In this document: positions 13,520 to 32,707 of the stretch, piece after piece
Numbering within the stretch: the stretch's first letter is position 1
How the letters are laid out: every line of letters begins with the position of its first letter
NCBI RefSeq assembly: GCF_900696045.1
Contig: NZ_LR216287.1
Location: 248,001 to 312,000, forward strand
DNA: 64,000 nt
Source: Candidatus Nitrosocosmicus franklandus
GTDB lineage: Archaea > Thermoproteota > Nitrososphaeria > Nitrososphaerales > Nitrososphaeraceae
Reading direction: 5' to 3'
Notes under the pieces: generated by a model
The model's database searches: none
What the model was told of the DNA's origin: nothing
The model's input: the letters and a program-made list of their open reading frames with translations, nothing else
Position numbers and translations under genes: made by a program

Positions 13520-13603
13520 GCGGGGGTCGCCTAGCCTGGTAGGGCGTGGGATTGCTAATCCCATGTTCGTAAGAACTCGTGGGTTCGAATCCCACTCCCC
13601 GCG
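13520..13603 (+). tRNA. tRNA-Ser (anticodon GCU)
   Basis: An 84-base class II tRNA. The acceptor stem GCGGGGG pairs with TCCCCGC (one G-T pair); discriminator base G. D arm, anticodon stem TGGGA/TCCCA with loop TTGCTAA (anticodon GCT), a long variable arm (about TGTTCGTAAGAACT) and T arm GTGGGTTCGAATCCCAC are all visible; the long variable arm fits serine. There is no intron and CCA is not encoded. Its last 20 bases are the start of the 29-bp direct repeat bounding the integrated element, so the tRNA remains intact after integration. The integrase frame overlaps its 3' end. Confidence 0.97.
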
Positions 13604-15108
13604 CTTATCTTGGGGATTTATACGACAATTTTAAATGCGATAGAAAAGCACCTAATGACAGAACGACAAATTTGGCGCATGAAAATACTTCTAGTCATAT
13701 TGAACAACATCAGCAATACATCTATTCATCAATCACTAAAAGGATAGACTCATTGACAAAATCATGCACAAAACAATATTTCAACAAGGTTTTAAAAAAT
13801 CTAGCCATTGCTAATATCGGCAATGCGAATACTATTTGTGATTATATTATCTCTGAAGAAACAGAGATCAACATCAAGAATTCTACTAAAGAAGGGAAAA
13901 TAAAGGTTCTTGTATGGCTTTCAAATTATCATGAAAACAAAAAACTCTTTAGAGAACTAACCAAACAAGATATCCTAGAATTTTTAAATAATTTGCGAAA
14001 ACCAATATCTGAGGACCCGACTCAGAGGTGGATTGGTTCTTACAATGGAAGACAAATCATTTTGAATAAATTTTTTAGATGGCTTTACAACCCTGAAGAA
14101 CCAGATCACACAAAGAGACAAACTCCGGATTGTATGAAGGGAATAAAGCAACTGCCAAGGAAGGAAAAAACTCCATATTCTCCCTCAGACTTATGGGAAC
14201 CCAGAGAGCACGTTTTATTTTTGAGATATTGTCCTAGTGTACGAGACCGATGCTTTCATGCTATGGCAAATGATTCCTCATGTCGGCCGTCAGAGTTGCT
14301 GAATTTACGAATACGTGACATTATTTTCAAAAAGACGCGTGAAGGAAAGCAATATGCAGAAATTCTGATAAAGGGAGGTAAAACCAGACCAAGGACCGTA
14401 CCATTAATAGATTCAATTCCATATGTAAAAGATCTTATTGATAATCATCCCACCGGTTCAAACCCTGATTCTTGGCTTTTTGTTTCCAGTTCTAAAACAT
14501 CCTTTGGATCGAGATTAACCCTTGATGGTTTAACCTATCAGTATAAATATTTCTATAAGAATCGATACTTCCCGGATCTTTTAGAGGACGAAACAGTTCC
14601 CGAAGCAGATAAAGCTTTGATTAGAAACCTGATAACAAAAAAATGGAACATTTATGTCCAGAGGCATTCGGCTCTCACCCTTAAATCCCAATTCTTAAAA
14701 GAACATGTTTTAAGAGACCATGCAGGTTGGACCTTAAGCAGCAAGATGCCTCAGATTTATATTCATTATTTTGGTAACGAATCTGCCAATTCTATCCTAC
14801 AAGCCAAAGGAATTATCAAACCCGAGAATGAAGAAAATAATATTAGCACGATGAAACCAAGAGAATGCCCGAATTGCGGTGAACCAAATAAAAGAGATGC
14901 CAGATTTTGTGCGAGTGATCATTGTCGAATGGTCCTATCATATGACTCCTATAATGAAGTTCGGAATGAAGATAAGCAAAAAATTGACAGACTAGAAAAT
15001 CAGATGAAATCACTGCAAGATGGTATGAACAGGATTTTTGCAGTCATACATCAAAATAACATGTTGATTAACATAAAGCCGGAGATTTTAGAAAAATTAG
15101 TAAAATAG
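13579..15108 (+). CDS. int: tyrosine recombinase (integrase) of the element
   Basis: Recombines attP with attB in tRNA-Ser. Catalytic residues in order: Arg236 (SCRPSELLNL), Lys265 or Lys268 (IKGGKTRPR), Arg362 in YVQRHSALT (the His of HxxR is Tyr here), His381 with Gly383-Trp384 (DHAGW) and nucleophile Tyr394 (PQIYIHYFG). A C-terminal zinc ribbon (CPNCGEPNKRDARFC, Cys430 and Cys433 onward) and a coiled coil (about 465-490) follow. In the integrated state the frame starts at GTG 13579 inside the tRNA; TTG 13672 (codon 32) is an alternative. Joined to the right repeat in a circle it would start at an ATG (see attR). Length 509 residues. Confidence 0.93.
   Translation: MGSNPTPRAYLGDLYDNFKCDRKAPNDRTTNLAHENTSSHIEQHQQYIYSSITKRIDSLTKSCTKQYFNKVLKNLAIANIGNANTICDYIISEETEINIKNSTKEGKIKVLVWLSNYHENKKLFRELTKQDILEFLNNLRKPISEDPTQRWIGSYNGRQIILNKFFRWLYNPEEPDHTKRQTPDCMKGIKQLPRKEKTPYSPSDLWEPREHVLFLRYCPSVRDRCFHAMANDSSCRPSELLNLRIRDIIFKKTREGKQYAEILIKGGKTRPRTVPLIDSIPYVKDLIDNHPTGSNPDSWLFVSSSKTSFGSRLTLDGLTYQYKYFYKNRYFPDLLEDETVPEADKALIRNLITKKWNIYVQRHSALTLKSQFLKEHVLRDHAGWTLSSKMPQIYIHYFGNESANSILQAKGIIKPENEENNISTMKPRECPNCGEPNKRDARFCASDHCRMVLSYDSYNEVRNEDKQKIDRLENQMKSLQDGMNRIFAVIHQNNMLINIKPEILEKLVK
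13584..13612 (+). repeat. attL, left attachment-site direct repeat
   Basis: A 29-bp sequence covering the last 20 bases of tRNA-Ser and the next 9 bases, identical to 32596-32624. It begins TTCGAATCCCACTCCCCGCG. Typical of archaeal tyrosine integrases, which recombine in the 3' half of a tRNA gene. Confidence 0.93.
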
Positions 15109-16853: not shown

Positions 16854-19439
16854 ATGAAATCTTCGGCCGGAGTCGTAGTTGATTTGATTGAATTTGACAT
16901 ATCTGATGAGTTAAAGCCTATTGTTTCGGAATTTGGATACGATAATAATGGATCAATCAAAATAACCTTTACAGAAGTTTATCAAAATTTGTCTTTACAC
17001 TGTTTCTTTGATATAAATAAGATTCAAAAATCACTTGCCGAATTTGAAAGGAAGTTGAAGTCCAAAGTACAAAGGCTTTTGCCATCTCACTATAATCTTA
17101 TCGAAGAGGATTTTATCAAGAATTTGCATAAGATAGACCTCGTTGAAGATGATACAAAGAGTTCAGATAGACAAAGTGATGATACTAAAACACAAGACAA
17201 CAAAATAGTATATCAAAGAAAATATCAGTTAGGTTTTATCCTATATGAAGCTGTTATTGTAGAAAGGTTACCAAAATTTGTTTTTTATGACTCTGGCACC
17301 TTCAATCTCATAGATAAAATAGAAGTAGCAAATTACACTATTTATCCAGCTGATACAATAATTTCATCTAACCCCATTCCATATTCTTTTGAATCAGAAC
17401 AAGAGCTAGCAGACTACCTGGAACTTGCCAAGAATGAAACTTTTGACTCTCTATTTGAAAAGATCCTATCAGAATTCAAAGACTACGTTAACGTAGAAGA
17501 ACATAATCAAATAATATTATCATGTGGAATATTGTTTAGCTATTTTCAGGACAAATTCGGCGCAACTCCCTATAATATTCTAGTAGGAGAGAACGGGTCC
17601 GGAAAGAACTCGGCGCTACTTGTATTTAGGTTGTTAGGATATAGGCCTCTTTATATCACAGCTGCAAGTGCTGCAAATTACTATACATTTTTGGGCCAAA
17701 TTCAGGAAGGCCAGGGAACAATAATAGAGGATGAGGCAGATAACATCTGCAACTCAATAGAAAAGAAAAACATGCTCAAGACAGGATATTCCAGTGGTGG
17801 TTCCGTTCCGAAGGTTGGGTTTACAAAAAATGGTAGACGATTCCAAGAATTCTATTTGACTTTTTGTCACAAGTGGTTTGCAATGGAAGAATTACCTCAG
17901 GGTAAAAACAACAGAGGTGTTTTTGACCGGTCGTTCATACATTATTTTATGAAAGGTGATGTAAAATACAACATTAAGGATGTATTAAAGGACAAAGATT
18001 CAAAGTCATACCAGAATTTAATTCACCTAAGAAAACTTCTCTTGGCTTTCAAACTTGTAAACTATGACCGAAAGTTTCCAAGTGTAAAGACAAATTTGAA
18101 AGATAGAGATGCCGAATTGACTCATCCACTGTTGAACATATTTTATGAGGGCCGCAATTTTGAAAAGATAAGATTAGCGTTATCAAAGATAATTTCTGAG
18201 AAGACGTCTACAAAGAGCAATTCTATTGAAGCAATGATTGCAGAAACTTTAAGACAGTTGATTGAAAATAAGAATGAACTAATAATTAGCATCTCCAACG
18301 ATGCTTTCTATTCCAGGTTTAAGGAAGTATCTGAAGCAAAAGATTACTGTTTTGATGAATCAAATTCGACCTTCTATCTACCAGATGGAACCAAGATATC
18401 CAAATCTAAAATTATAAACTTGCTAAAGTCCAAATTCAAGGCAAAACTATTCAGGACAAACCAAGCCAGAGGTTTTACCATCAATAAACGCGATATTGAA
18501 AAAATCTCAAAACAATATGATATAATAGAAGAAATAATCGTTAATGAGAACCAAACTAAAGGAACACATTCGCCTGATGCTATAGAAGAAGATGAAAAAC
18601 AAATGGCAAGTAAAAAGAAGGTGACGGAGGTGACGGAGGTGACGGAGTTTAAAGATGCCATACCTCATTTTGATGAAAAAACTTCAAAGGATGATAATCA
18701 ACGAAGAAAAGAAGATGATCTCACCCCAAAAGATAAAGGAGGTAATAAAGATACTATCTCAAGCAAGAAGGAAAATGAAGTAGATAAGAATAACGAATCC
18801 TTAGCCGGTCCAAACACTTACTATGATAAGGAAGATAACTCGACTAATAGCTCTTCTGATACTTCAAATCCTGATAATAAATCAAATACAAACTCAACTG
18901 ATCTTAACGCGACGCTTTCTAACTTAAGAGAGAGTAATAATAGTAGTATTACCAATAACAATACTGAGCATATAGGTAGAGAGGCTAAAGAGGAGCTAGG
19001 GCGAGAACCCCTTGTATCTAACAAATCAACGATCAATCAACCTGAGTCTATATCTTCTAAGGAACCATCTCACAACTCGGGTTCTACTTCCCTTTCATCA
19101 TTGAGTTCTTACAACTCAAATTCTCAGCAGGAAACTCAATCTAATAAATATAAAGTAATTTCAAAAACAATATACACACCTTTAAAAGGCGTCACGGGTG
19201 TCACCTCCGTCACTGCATTACCCCCGCAATATCCCTGTTATTTCTGTGGTAATGATTATAAGACAGGTATAGACTTTGACATGGAACTTCATCTACTTGA
19301 GAAACATAAGCAACAAATGTTAAGGCTACCTATCAAAGGTAATTTAGATAATCGGAGCGAATATTTGGTTCAACTCACAAAAAAGAAGATTAGGGACGAA
19401 AGTACAGTTAATGTCGAAGGAGACCACTATGAACTCTGA
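16854..19439 (+). CDS. P-loop helicase-like replication protein with C2H2 finger
   Basis: An 861-residue putative replicative helicase/ATPase of the element. The centre has a P-loop (VGENGSGKNS, residues 244-253; Asn replaces the usual Ser/Thr directly after Lys) and Walker B (TIIEDEAD, 289-296), with a sensor-like FCHKWFAMEELP near 342-353 and an arginine in NNRGVFDRSF near 360, resembling DUF927/D5-like ATPases of plasmids and viruses. After about residue 590 comes a long Ser/Asn-rich linker, then a finger with C795, C798, H813, H818. The linker holds the repeats VTEVTEVTE and VTGVTSVT, whose DNA forms inverted repeats. It overlaps the primase gene. Confidence 0.75.
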   Translation: MKSSAGVVVDLIEFDISDELKPIVSEFGYDNNGSIKITFTEVYQNLSLHCFFDINKIQKSLAEFERKLKSKVQRLLPSHYNLIEEDFIKNLHKIDLVEDDTKSSDRQSDDTKTQDNKIVYQRKYQLGFILYEAVIVERLPKFVFYDSGTFNLIDKIEVANYTIYPADTIISSNPIPYSFESEQELADYLELAKNETFDSLFEKILSEFKDYVNVEEHNQIILSCGILFSYFQDKFGATPYNILVGENGSGKNSALLVFRLLGYRPLYITAASAANYYTFLGQIQEGQGTIIEDEADNICNSIEKKNMLKTGYSSGGSVPKVGFTKNGRRFQEFYLTFCHKWFAMEELPQGKNNRGVFDRSFIHYFMKGDVKYNIKDVLKDKDSKSYQNLIHLRKLLLAFKLVNYDRKFPSVKTNLKDRDAELTHPLLNIFYEGRNFEKIRLALSKIISEKTSTKSNSIEAMIAETLRQLIENKNELIISISNDAFYSRFKEVSEAKDYCFDESNSTFYLPDGTKISKSKIINLLKSKFKAKLFRTNQARGFTINKRDIEKISKQYDIIEEIIVNENQTKGTHSPDAIEEDEKQMASKKKVTEVTEVTEFKDAIPHFDEKTSKDDNQRRKEDDLTPKDKGGNKDTISSKKENEVDKNNESLAGPNTYYDKEDNSTNSSSDTSNPDNKSNTNSTDLNATLSNLRESNNSSITNNNTEHIGREAKEELGREPLVSNKSTINQPESISSKEPSHNSGSTSLSSLSSYNSNSQQETQSNKYKVISKTIYTPLKGVTGVTSVTALPPQYPCYFCGNDYKTGIDFDMELHLLEKHKQQMLRLPIKGNLDNRSEYLVQLTKKKIRDESTVNVEGDHYEL
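18621..18647 (+). repeat. three tandem GTGACGGAG repeats in helicase gene
   Basis: Three exact tandem copies of a 9-bp unit. An inverted exact copy of 14 bases (GTGACGGAGGTGAC against GTCACCTCCGTCAC) occurs at 19200-19213. In frame the units encode VTE triplets. They could be iteron-like binding sites or simply a coding repeat. Confidence 0.7.
19191..19217 (+). repeat. inverted counterpart: three 9-bp GTCAC units
   Basis: Three 9-bp units starting GTCAC (GTCACGGGT, GTCACCTCC, GTCACTGCA) about 550 bases from the GTGACGGAG array and in the opposite orientation; the centre contains the exact reverse complement. In frame they encode VTG/VTS/VTA. Confidence 0.65.
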
Positions 19440-20526
19440 AGATATAGACTTTATAATGTCTCACTTTGGTCATCAGTTACAGGATTTTCCACGTAAGATG
19501 ATGACTGACAAAATAGGTGCTCAAGTTCCGGTATTTTCAAAAGAAGAGATCTTCATAAAGTGCCAAGAATCAGATTTCATAGATTGTAGGATTAATGCCT
19601 ATCCGGAATACACTGAATACCAAGGAATAGTAAGACACCCCCCAAACTTTATTTTTATAGATCTGGACTTGTCGAAGTTTAAAAATTCTAAAAAGAAACT
19701 TGATAATGCTTTAGAGAATACCTTAAACAACATTCATTATCTTGGAGCAAAACCTACCGTGATGTGGTCTGGAAACGGATATCATATTTATCTTCCAATA
19801 GAAGCTATGGTTTTGGACCTGATAGATAAATTTTCAAAAGATAAATTCCCAAGCCTTTTCTCAGATAATTATTATAGCAAATACCATGGTTATTCAGTAT
19901 CAGAATTATTTTTAAAATTCGCTAAAGACCATCTAACCAATGGAAATGCTGATCCGCAGCATCATCCAAAGTACAAAACATGTTTGATAAGGTTTCCCAA
20001 TACCTACAACTCAAAAAACATCGGGAATGGATTAACTCTTGAAGAATCAAAAGTTAGGCTAATTCAAAAATGGGATGGTGGAAGAATTCCCATACAACTG
20101 TTACTTAAGGACTTTAGGAGGTGGATAGCACAAGAAGAACTTGACCAAAAAAGAAGAATCAGAAGGATAAAGTCCAAGATTCTCAATAGTAAATCAAAAA
20201 ACTCGGAAATATTATGGATAGAGAAACTGCTTCAAATCCCACTTGAAGATCACAGAAAATATTGTCTTTTTCACATTTTGGTACCTTATCTTGTCAATGT
20301 GAAAAAGTTACCGCCCGAGGAAATTTCTCAGGTAATAGTTGATTGGTTGTCAAAATGTAACAATGTGAAGCATCTAGATTTTGATCCAGTGTCAGAAATT
20401 AAAAATAAGATGAAATATGTCAAAAGTTACAAGCCTATGAGTTTGCCTAAATTAAGAAGAGAAAATAAATGTCTGTTTCAAGTTTTGTTTCCTACAATTG
20501 GTAATTTTTGTGGGACTGGCTGTTGA
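19429..20526 (+). CDS. archaeo-eukaryotic primase (primase-polymerase)
   Basis: Probable primase of the element, partner of the helicase-like protein. Numbering from an upstream ATG at 19411, it has the AEP motifs: FIFIDLDLS (catalytic Asp84 and Asp86), MWSGNGYHIYLP (SxGxH motif, 120-125) and TCLIRFPNTYNSK (190-202, like the RxPxTxN nucleotide-binding strand). The C-terminal 130 residues (LEDHRKYCLFHILVPYLVNV onward) resemble a PriCT/PriL-type helical domain and end with Cys residues (CLFQVLFPTIGNFCGTGC). I chose ATG 19429 because AAGGAGA lies just upstream (19417-19423); it overlaps the helicase gene by 11 bases. 365 residues. Confidence 0.85.
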   Translation: MNSEDIDFIMSHFGHQLQDFPRKMMTDKIGAQVPVFSKEEIFIKCQESDFIDCRINAYPEYTEYQGIVRHPPNFIFIDLDLSKFKNSKKKLDNALENTLNNIHYLGAKPTVMWSGNGYHIYLPIEAMVLDLIDKFSKDKFPSLFSDNYYSKYHGYSVSELFLKFAKDHLTNGNADPQHHPKYKTCLIRFPNTYNSKNIGNGLTLEESKVRLIQKWDGGRIPIQLLLKDFRRWIAQEELDQKRRIRRIKSKILNSKSKNSEILWIEKLLQIPLEDHRKYCLFHILVPYLVNVKKLPPEEISQVIVDWLSKCNNVKHLDFDPVSEIKNKMKYVKSYKPMSLPKLRRENKCLFQVLFPTIGNFCGTGC

Positions 20527-28022: not shown

Positions 28023-28859
28023 TTAGGGATTTTGTATTTGTGGATTATATAGTATGTCTATTGTACATGACTTAGTCTCTTCTGGATGGATCACACCTGA
28101 ACAACCTTCACTATATTGAACATGGGCGGTATTGAGATTAATGAAGGCGTTCTTAGCTTTATGAATTACTTTGTAACTTCCAAATCCTAATGTTACCTCT
28201 GTTGGTTCAGACGTAGCTGGAAAAGCATCTGGCGATTGATGGTTCCCTTCAATGTGAATTGTATAAAAAGTTGAGTCTGCATTACCGCCATTAATGTTGT
28301 TGACATTGGCTATAACTATCACTTTCCCATACTGAACACCTTCTCCTGTATCACCTTTAGGCCCTTGTTCTCCCTGTGGTCCCGATGGTCCCTGTGGTCC
28401 CTGTGGTCCCTGTGGGCCTTGTGGTCCAGTTTCACCCTGTGGTCCTTGTGGTCCCTGAGTTCCAGTATCGCCTTTGTCTCCCTTTTCTCCCTGTGGCCCT
28501 TGTGGTCCCTGAGTTCCAGTATCGCCTTTGTCTCCCTTTTCTCCCTGTGGCCCTTGAGGTCCTTGTGGTCCCTGAGTTCCAGTATCGCCTTTGTCTCCCT
28601 TTTCTCCCTGTGGCCCTTGAGGTCCTTGTGGTCCCTGAGTTCCAGTATCGCCTTTGTCTCCCTTTTCTCCCTGTGGCCCTTGAGGTCCTTGTGGTCCCCT
28701 CAGCAAGTCCAATCCAGGGAGGTCTGCGAATTCATCAAGGTCAAAATCCACTGATATTGTGGCTAAGGCTTGGGGTATAAATCCCGTTATAACAGTGGAG
28801 AATACTACAGTAAATGTTATTAGAACAGATAACTTTATACTATAATTTGTCAAATTCAT
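28023..28859 (-). CDS. secreted collagen-like protein
   Basis: A 278-residue exported protein: signal peptide (about 1-33), short linker ([19 protein letters not shown]), then about 115 residues of uninterrupted Gly-X-Y triplets ([18 protein letters not shown] type) and a C-terminal globular domain of about 100 residues ([11 protein letters not shown] onward) with two cysteines ([16 protein letters not shown]). Gly-X-Y runs of this length form collagen triple helices; Lys-Gly-Asp charge pairs favour stability. Collagen-like proteins in bacteria and phages act as surface fibres or adhesins. The DNA repeats in 54- and 63-base units. Start ATG 28859. Confidence 0.88.
28349..28697 (-). repeat. 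54/63-bp coding repeats of the collagen-like gene
   Basis: Four near-perfect DNA units encode [18 protein letters not shown] (54 bp) or the same plus one GPQ (63 bp), flanked by shorter GPQ triplets. The near identity of units at DNA level implies recent duplication or recombination, so copy number probably varies between strains. Confidence 0.85.
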
Positions 28860-32560: not shown

Positions 32561-32593
32561 TTTAAATAATACAATCCCCAAGATAACCTAATG
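32561..32593 (+). promoter_or_regulatory. detached integrase promoter and ATG (circular form)
   Basis: tttaaata at 32561-32568 is centred about 26 bases before ATG 32591-32593. That ATG begins ATG GAT TCG AAT CCC and runs into the right repeat in exactly the reading frame the integrase uses through the left repeat (GTG GGT TCG AAT CCC). In an excised circle this promoter and start would precede the integrase directly. In the integrated state the frame continues into host DNA and stops after 28 codons. Confidence 0.72.
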
Positions 32594-32595
32594 GA

Positions 32596-32624
32596 TTCGA
32601 ATCCCACTCCCCGCGCTTATCTTG
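32596..32624 (+). repeat. attR, right attachment-site direct repeat
   Basis: Exact copy of 13584-13612. It holds the last 20 bases of tRNA-Ser plus 9 bases, with no tRNA body upstream; host sequence resumes to the right. This marks the distal end of the element. Confidence 0.92.
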
Positions 32625-32707
32625 TGGATTATATTATTTATCAAGAAAATGGAACTCATCAGATAGAAAACTACTAAAAATTATTATTTGACAACACTAT
32701 AGCTACA

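Follow-up and report, generated by a model that had tools for sequence, protein, structure and literature searches.

The integrase of a 19-kb mobile element integrated beside a tRNA-Ser(GCT) gene of an ammonia-oxidising archaeon has a reading frame that runs open across its own attachment site, and the opposite end of the element carries, in this same frame, an ATG preceded by a putative TATA box. On balance, we favour the reading that this TATA box and ATG form the main start of the integrase in the excised circle and are displaced by integration.

The element, its attachment sites and the frame across the junction

The window under study is a stretch of 64,000 nucleotides (G000:C1:248001-312000) from a genome of 2,836,447 bp. 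The ends of the element are copies of a 29-bp core, an exact direct repeat for which the number expected in shuffled sequences is 0, and the integrase adjoins the tRNA gene and is read in the same direction. The features needed here are the following, in window coordinates:

13520-13604, + strand: tRNA-Ser(GCT), the integration target, intact after integration (ARAGORN)
13579-15108, + strand: tyrosine integrase ORF, 509 codons from a GTG in the tRNA T-stem; first in-frame ATG at 14134
13584-13612, + strand: attL core (exact repeat), overlapping the tRNA 3' end
13605-13618, + strand: left arm TTATCTTGGGGATT, which forms a perfect 14-bp inverted repeat with the right arm
13629-13636, + strand: P2, a TATA-like box TTTTAAAT that stays with the integrase on integration
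13672-13674, + strand: conserved in-frame TTG, +88 from the core, candidate start when integrated
32561-32568, + strand: P1, a putative right-end TATA box TTTAAATA, starting 30 nt before the ATG
32573-32586, + strand: right arm AATCCCCAAGATAA, pairing with the left arm across attP
32591-32593, + strand: ATG, predicted integrase start in the excised circle
32596-32624, + strand: attR core (exact repeat), right end

The core length of 29 bp proposed in the first-pass annotation holds for the repeat within the window, but the two closest elements share only ~21-22 bp at their att sites (TTCGAATCCCACTCCCCGCGC[T]). The rest of the repeat, TTATCTTG, may be native flank, since in a relative a tRNA-Ser site that seems to lack an element reads on as TTATCTT. 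The attP core is framed by the perfect 14-bp inverted repeats, which are the probable arm sites. Just outside attR (32616-32640), TTATCTTGtGGATTaTA resembles an integrase left end, as does TTTACGACATTTTTAAGAG in the right flank of attR in G005, so that older elements may be stacked at this flank; alternatively, the TTATCTT beside attR may be the native flank of the tRNA. A Pfam scan of seven ORFs gave PriX and YaaC as informative matches besides the integrase. The PriX (primase X) domain protein (19411-20526) and its neighbour, an 861-aa protein, are probably the replication module of the element, and the product of a cargo gene at 28023-28859, 278 aa long, has collagen-like GPQGPQG repeats and probably carries a signal peptide.

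The letters and coordinates previously reported for the right repeat are all correct. ATG 32591 and GTG 13579 precede the right and the left core, respectively, by 5 bases each, and both are in the frame open to the integrase stop at 15108. Joining the right flank, the core and the integrase in silico yields a 509-aa ORF (MDSNPTPRAYLGDLYDNFK...) starting with ATG GAT TCG AAT CCC, which bears out the earlier claim that this ATG is in the integrase frame; attP sits inside the integrase ORF of the joined, circular form, as it does in the relatives G008 and G005. Among 173 ATG-started ORFs of the fetched genomes the commonest TATA-like offset is -30, and the geometry of P1 and the ATG therefore fits a leaderless gene. 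At random positions and frames of the window, an in-frame ATG at most 30 nt upstream without a stop occurs with a chance of 12.7%, and such an ATG combined with TTTAWATA (at most one mismatch) at -32 to -28 with a chance of 0.18%. The block formed by promoter and ATG is the single PWM match in the window; on the core repeat, this unique match and the odds of the geometry, a chance origin of the right-end block was rejected.

In the integrated form, the integrase frame is open through the tRNA T-arm without an ATG before residue 186, and the chromosomal start candidates are GTG 13579, TTG 13672 and later TTGs. The protein matches PF00589 weakly (26.8 bits), as well as XerA/XerC, has no match to PF16795 (Phage_integr_3) at E<=0.01, and displays the conserved residues R236, K268, R362, H363, W384 and Y394. 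In the AlphaFold2 model, pLDDT stays below 50 for residues 1-39, and the fold becomes confident at about residue 50. TTG 13672 corresponds to residue 32 and its product to 478 aa; since the first ~39 residues are predicted to be disordered, this shorter protein would keep the whole recombinase fold, with nothing predicted lost.

Conservation of the right end and contrast between integrase clades

Homologues 69-76% identical to the integrase are found in G005, which belongs to the window's own genus, G008, G009 and G059, and those with enough upstream sequence lie at the same tRNA as in the window (NZ_VUYS01000018.1 matches the same integrase locus as G005). Right ends were mapped 21.2 kb away in G008 and 18.8 kb away in G005; in both, CCCCAAGATAACCTAATGGA precedes the core and the ATG is in the same frame as in the window. 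The search of relatives for an in-frame start beside attP, suggested in the first-pass annotation, was thus positive in 3/3 clade elements with a mapped right end. G008 and G005 keep the integrase, the core, the right arm and the ATG, while their cargo, save the integrase and a few scattered homologues, is unrelated to that of the window, which indicates that the right-end block belongs to the integration module though it stands at the opposite end of the element.

The only joined junction of the window type that was seen, G009:C349, has a TGA at codon 20 and was rejected as proof of a working circle because it leads into a truncated integrase remnant. Exact scans of viral contigs with three att patterns and one protein scan returned no free or circular relatives, and plasmid and phage collections yielded only distant integrases. 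In the sister integrase of the window clade at L019 (G001:C238), the stretch from the upstream stop to the conserved domain is free of ATG, GTG and TTG; this gene may be a pseudogene or rely on a different start codon.

A family-wide pattern search gave 23 distinct copies of the window-type right end (R1), whose alignment shows conservation between about -29 and +18 relative to the ATG. The ATG is intact in 21 of them and the TATA box, at canonical distance from the ATG, is kept in about 20. The block, ATG included, is conserved in integrase-less modules to the same degree as in integrase-bearing ones, so that part of this conservation must serve recombination, and R1 conservation, as read from these alignments, is by itself no proof of a promoter. 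R1 TATA scores are moreover barely to modestly above those of local shuffles (48% vs 36% at 3 bits or more). In R2, the right-end type of the clade to which the own-genome paralogue (58% identical) belongs, the arm is conserved and the core is preceded by GTAGA, with a TAG in the frame of the paralogue integrase and no TATA box; a TATA score of at least 3 is reached by 2/22 R2 copies vs 13/27 of the window type. R4 (32 copies), not closely related to R1, nearly always has ATGGA or ATGGT in front of the core, its ATG being at the place of that of R1, and an AT-rich box, TTTTAT, at about -29. Judging from the arms and from one module, R4 appears to pair with an integrase whose frame would match its ATG.

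Integrase-less modules of 1.2-20 kb, each enclosed between the core TTCGARTCCC and a right-end motif, form arrays behind tRNA genes like gene cassettes (L155-L158 at G008:C1:612000-691999; L052, L053 and L106 at G006:C1:185300-233999). The same 288-aa gene is present twice in G008 (100% identical) and, at 78%, in G006, and a 409-aa gene (93%) is common to both genomes; these two genes are associated with different tRNAs and different right ends in the two species. One left end, TTCGARTCCCAAACTTYGTCTGG, recurs behind the right-end motifs of several families (G008:C1 645599 and 660973; G006:C1 223757; 22 places in 10 genomes, L243-L264), and a second recurrent left end is CCCACTC(TC)ATTTAATAT.

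The layout of the start region was compared over 22 integrases. Every integrase of the window clade (6/6) and of the R4-paired clade (2/2) shares the frame of the right-end ATG, which has no stop in the core, and its TTG at +82 to +88 is not preceded by a good TATA box at leaderless distance. Conversely, in six integrases of other clades (G000b, G017, G011c111, G013, G007 and G011v) the frame differs or holds stops, and the TTG, at +71 to +79, is preceded at ~25-33 nt by a strong TATA box (4.9-6.4 bits) inside the element. The remaining integrases (e.g. G026, G030, G006 and G002) have their start downstream of the core and lack a box of this strength. We read these layouts, from the sequences compared, as two ways to start an integrase, either across attP, where the start would be lost on integration, or inside the element, where it would be retained. 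The two clades of the former layout stand apart in the tree, implying that it arose twice or was lost in between. The geometry, its conservation, the frame and this contrast with sister clades are established.

Proposed control of the integrase and alternative readings

After integration, the gene keeps candidate start signals of its own. At the position of P2, about +46 to +53 from the core, many relatives of several clades carry an AT-rich box. Its best match in the window clade lies ~42 nt before the TTG, whereas the canonical distance is ~30, and P2 scores 3.3 against 6.0 in the own-genome paralogue. TTG 13672 is conserved in 8/8 aligned clade members. All intact members keep the frame from core to TTG open and at constant length. 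Its pN/pS is 0.77 vs 0.25-0.33 in the domain, that is, weak protein-level constraint, and a neutral simulation ignoring indels gives a probability of 0.18 that this stretch is open in six sequences; neither measure is decisive.

In the mechanism that we propose, attP would stand at the extreme 5' end of the integrase gene. In the excised circle, with a predicted junction ...CCTAATGGATTCGAATCCC...TTATCTTGGGGATTTATAC, the right end would provide the TATA box at 32561 and, at 32591, a leaderless ATG from which the frame runs through the tRNA-derived core, giving the full 509-aa integrase when integration is needed. Integration would leave the catalytic frame whole beside tRNA-Ser and move P1 and the first two codons (ATG GAT) 19 kb away, where they would point into the right flank. 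The leftover pair, the TATA-like box at 13629 and TTG 13672, is poor and would sustain a low level of a 478-aa, structurally complete enzyme. The outcome would be an integration-coupled down-regulation rather than the destruction of the gene, and excision would stay possible. The first-pass annotation had described a built-in integration switch, and the attP frame and promoter/ATG geometry on which it built are confirmed and shared by the close clade; the shutdown that it envisaged has to be softened, as TTG 13672 and a TATA-like box remain. Similarly, its description of a nearly whole protein losing its promoter and first codons agrees with the displacement of two codons and with a retained frame encoding the whole fold, but conservation alone does not prove the promoter.

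Promoter activity, a leaderless start and a lower expression after integration are what we infer from several lines of evidence: the exact joined frame with a TATA/ATG spacing at the commonest offset, the module kept with unrelated cargo in G008 and G005, the clade contrast among the 22 integrases, the R2 ends devoid of ATG and TATA box, and the R4 ends with an AT-rich box and an ATG at the place of those of R1. Against this reading stand the presence of the block in integrase-less modules, the R1 TATA scores close to those of shuffles, the weak pN/pS constraint, the neutral openness probability and the TGA of the G009:C349 junction, though the integrase is truncated there. Several of these points would be accounted for if the right-end block were recombination DNA only (arm, spacer and AT-rich flank), with an incidental ATG and translation from TTG 13672 under P2 in both states. 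This alternative, which we consider a serious but less probable one, agrees with the perfect inverted arm repeat around the core, the retention of the block with its ATG in integrase-less modules, the frequent association in sister clades of a box at the P2 position with a downstream TTG, the invariance of the TTG and the predicted disorder of residues 1-39. It has however to accommodate the spacing and score of P2, a coincidence of frame, ATG and TATA spacing of about 0.2% per position, and a sister right end, R2, that manages without ATG and TATA box.

The open frame of constant length in all intact members would also be expected if both starts were in constant use, the ATG form adding a 31-residue tail with a role of its own (e.g. 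arm binding) and the amount of integrase being unswitched; we regard this as unlikely, the tail being predicted as disordered and fast-evolving. Even less credible is an integrated state relying on read-through from the tRNA-Ser promoter with translation from GTG 13579. This GTG lies in the tRNA T-stem, which tRNA 3' processing would cut off the downstream transcript, GTG included. The integrase is nevertheless located directly behind the tRNA in the same direction, and such a read-through has been proposed for the int(C) fragment of pTN3 (PMC8371274).

Comparison with known integration-controlled systems

By analogy, the closest functional parallel to the displaced P1/ATG start is the Pcirc promoter of ICEclc, an outward constitutive promoter listed as the intB13 promoter and mapped experimentally (PMC2892462, PMC9286271). 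In this bacterial ICE, as proposed for the window, an outward promoter of the element reaches the integrase of the other end only in the circle. The window differs in that the start codon is shifted as well and in its leaderless archaeal TATA geometry, and its promoter is predicted whereas that of ICEclc is mapped. Among archaea, the suicidal integrases of SSV1, pTN3 and pT26-2 have their 5' part, with the promoter, parted from the catalytic part on integration, and in a 2021 review every suicidal integrase falls into a single lineage that carries PF16795 (PMC8371274). The window shares with the SSV type an attP at the integrase gene and a predicted parting of the 5' end and promoter from the catalytic part, but it would displace two codons only. 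The int(N)/int(C) split is absent, the 509-codon frame staying open in the chromosome, and an SSV-type suicidal integrase was rejected on the lack of both a PF16795 match and a coding split. With no PF16795 and an unsplit coding body, this integrase would work partly like ICEclc and the suicidal systems and is a member of neither.

The element could represent a second, independent archaeal route to an integration-controlled integrase, outside the PF16795 lineage and with promoter and leaderless start beyond attP, a proposal that we put forward tentatively. If true, integration itself would turn the integrase down with its coding region kept, a possible way for archaeal elements to tie integrase expression to their physical state with no repressor involved, and the arrangement could be a middle step between ordinary and suicidal archaeal integrases. 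Module ends would then carry a promoter, and end exchange, also suggested by the arrays of integrase-less modules, could shift a clade between the two layouts, whose presence in related clades of ammonia-oxidising archaea allows a comparison of transcript starts.

The pNOB8-type (type II) and thaumarchaeal integrated elements resemble the window in their tRNA 3' end target (PMC8371274, PMC6563490), their uninterrupted integrase beside the tRNA and their nature of mid-sized cryptic integrated elements, and the consulted passages of the 2019 thaumarchaeal survey name only NitEve-E3 as having an SSV1-like integrase split on integration (PMC6563490). The catalytic frame of the window is intact as in the pNOB8 type, but its start signals appear to lie across attP, with only GTG and TTG starts left and the probable main promoter predicted to be displaced. 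In the integration-dependent immunity of mycobacteriophage BPs (PMC4557955), an att site is likewise located inside a gene and integration alters the product as a switch, but it is the repressor C-terminus that is lost, whereas in the window the 5' control region of an integrase would be displaced. Seen against these systems, the arrangement appears new as a variant, the logic of a circle-specific integrase promoter being already known in bacteria.
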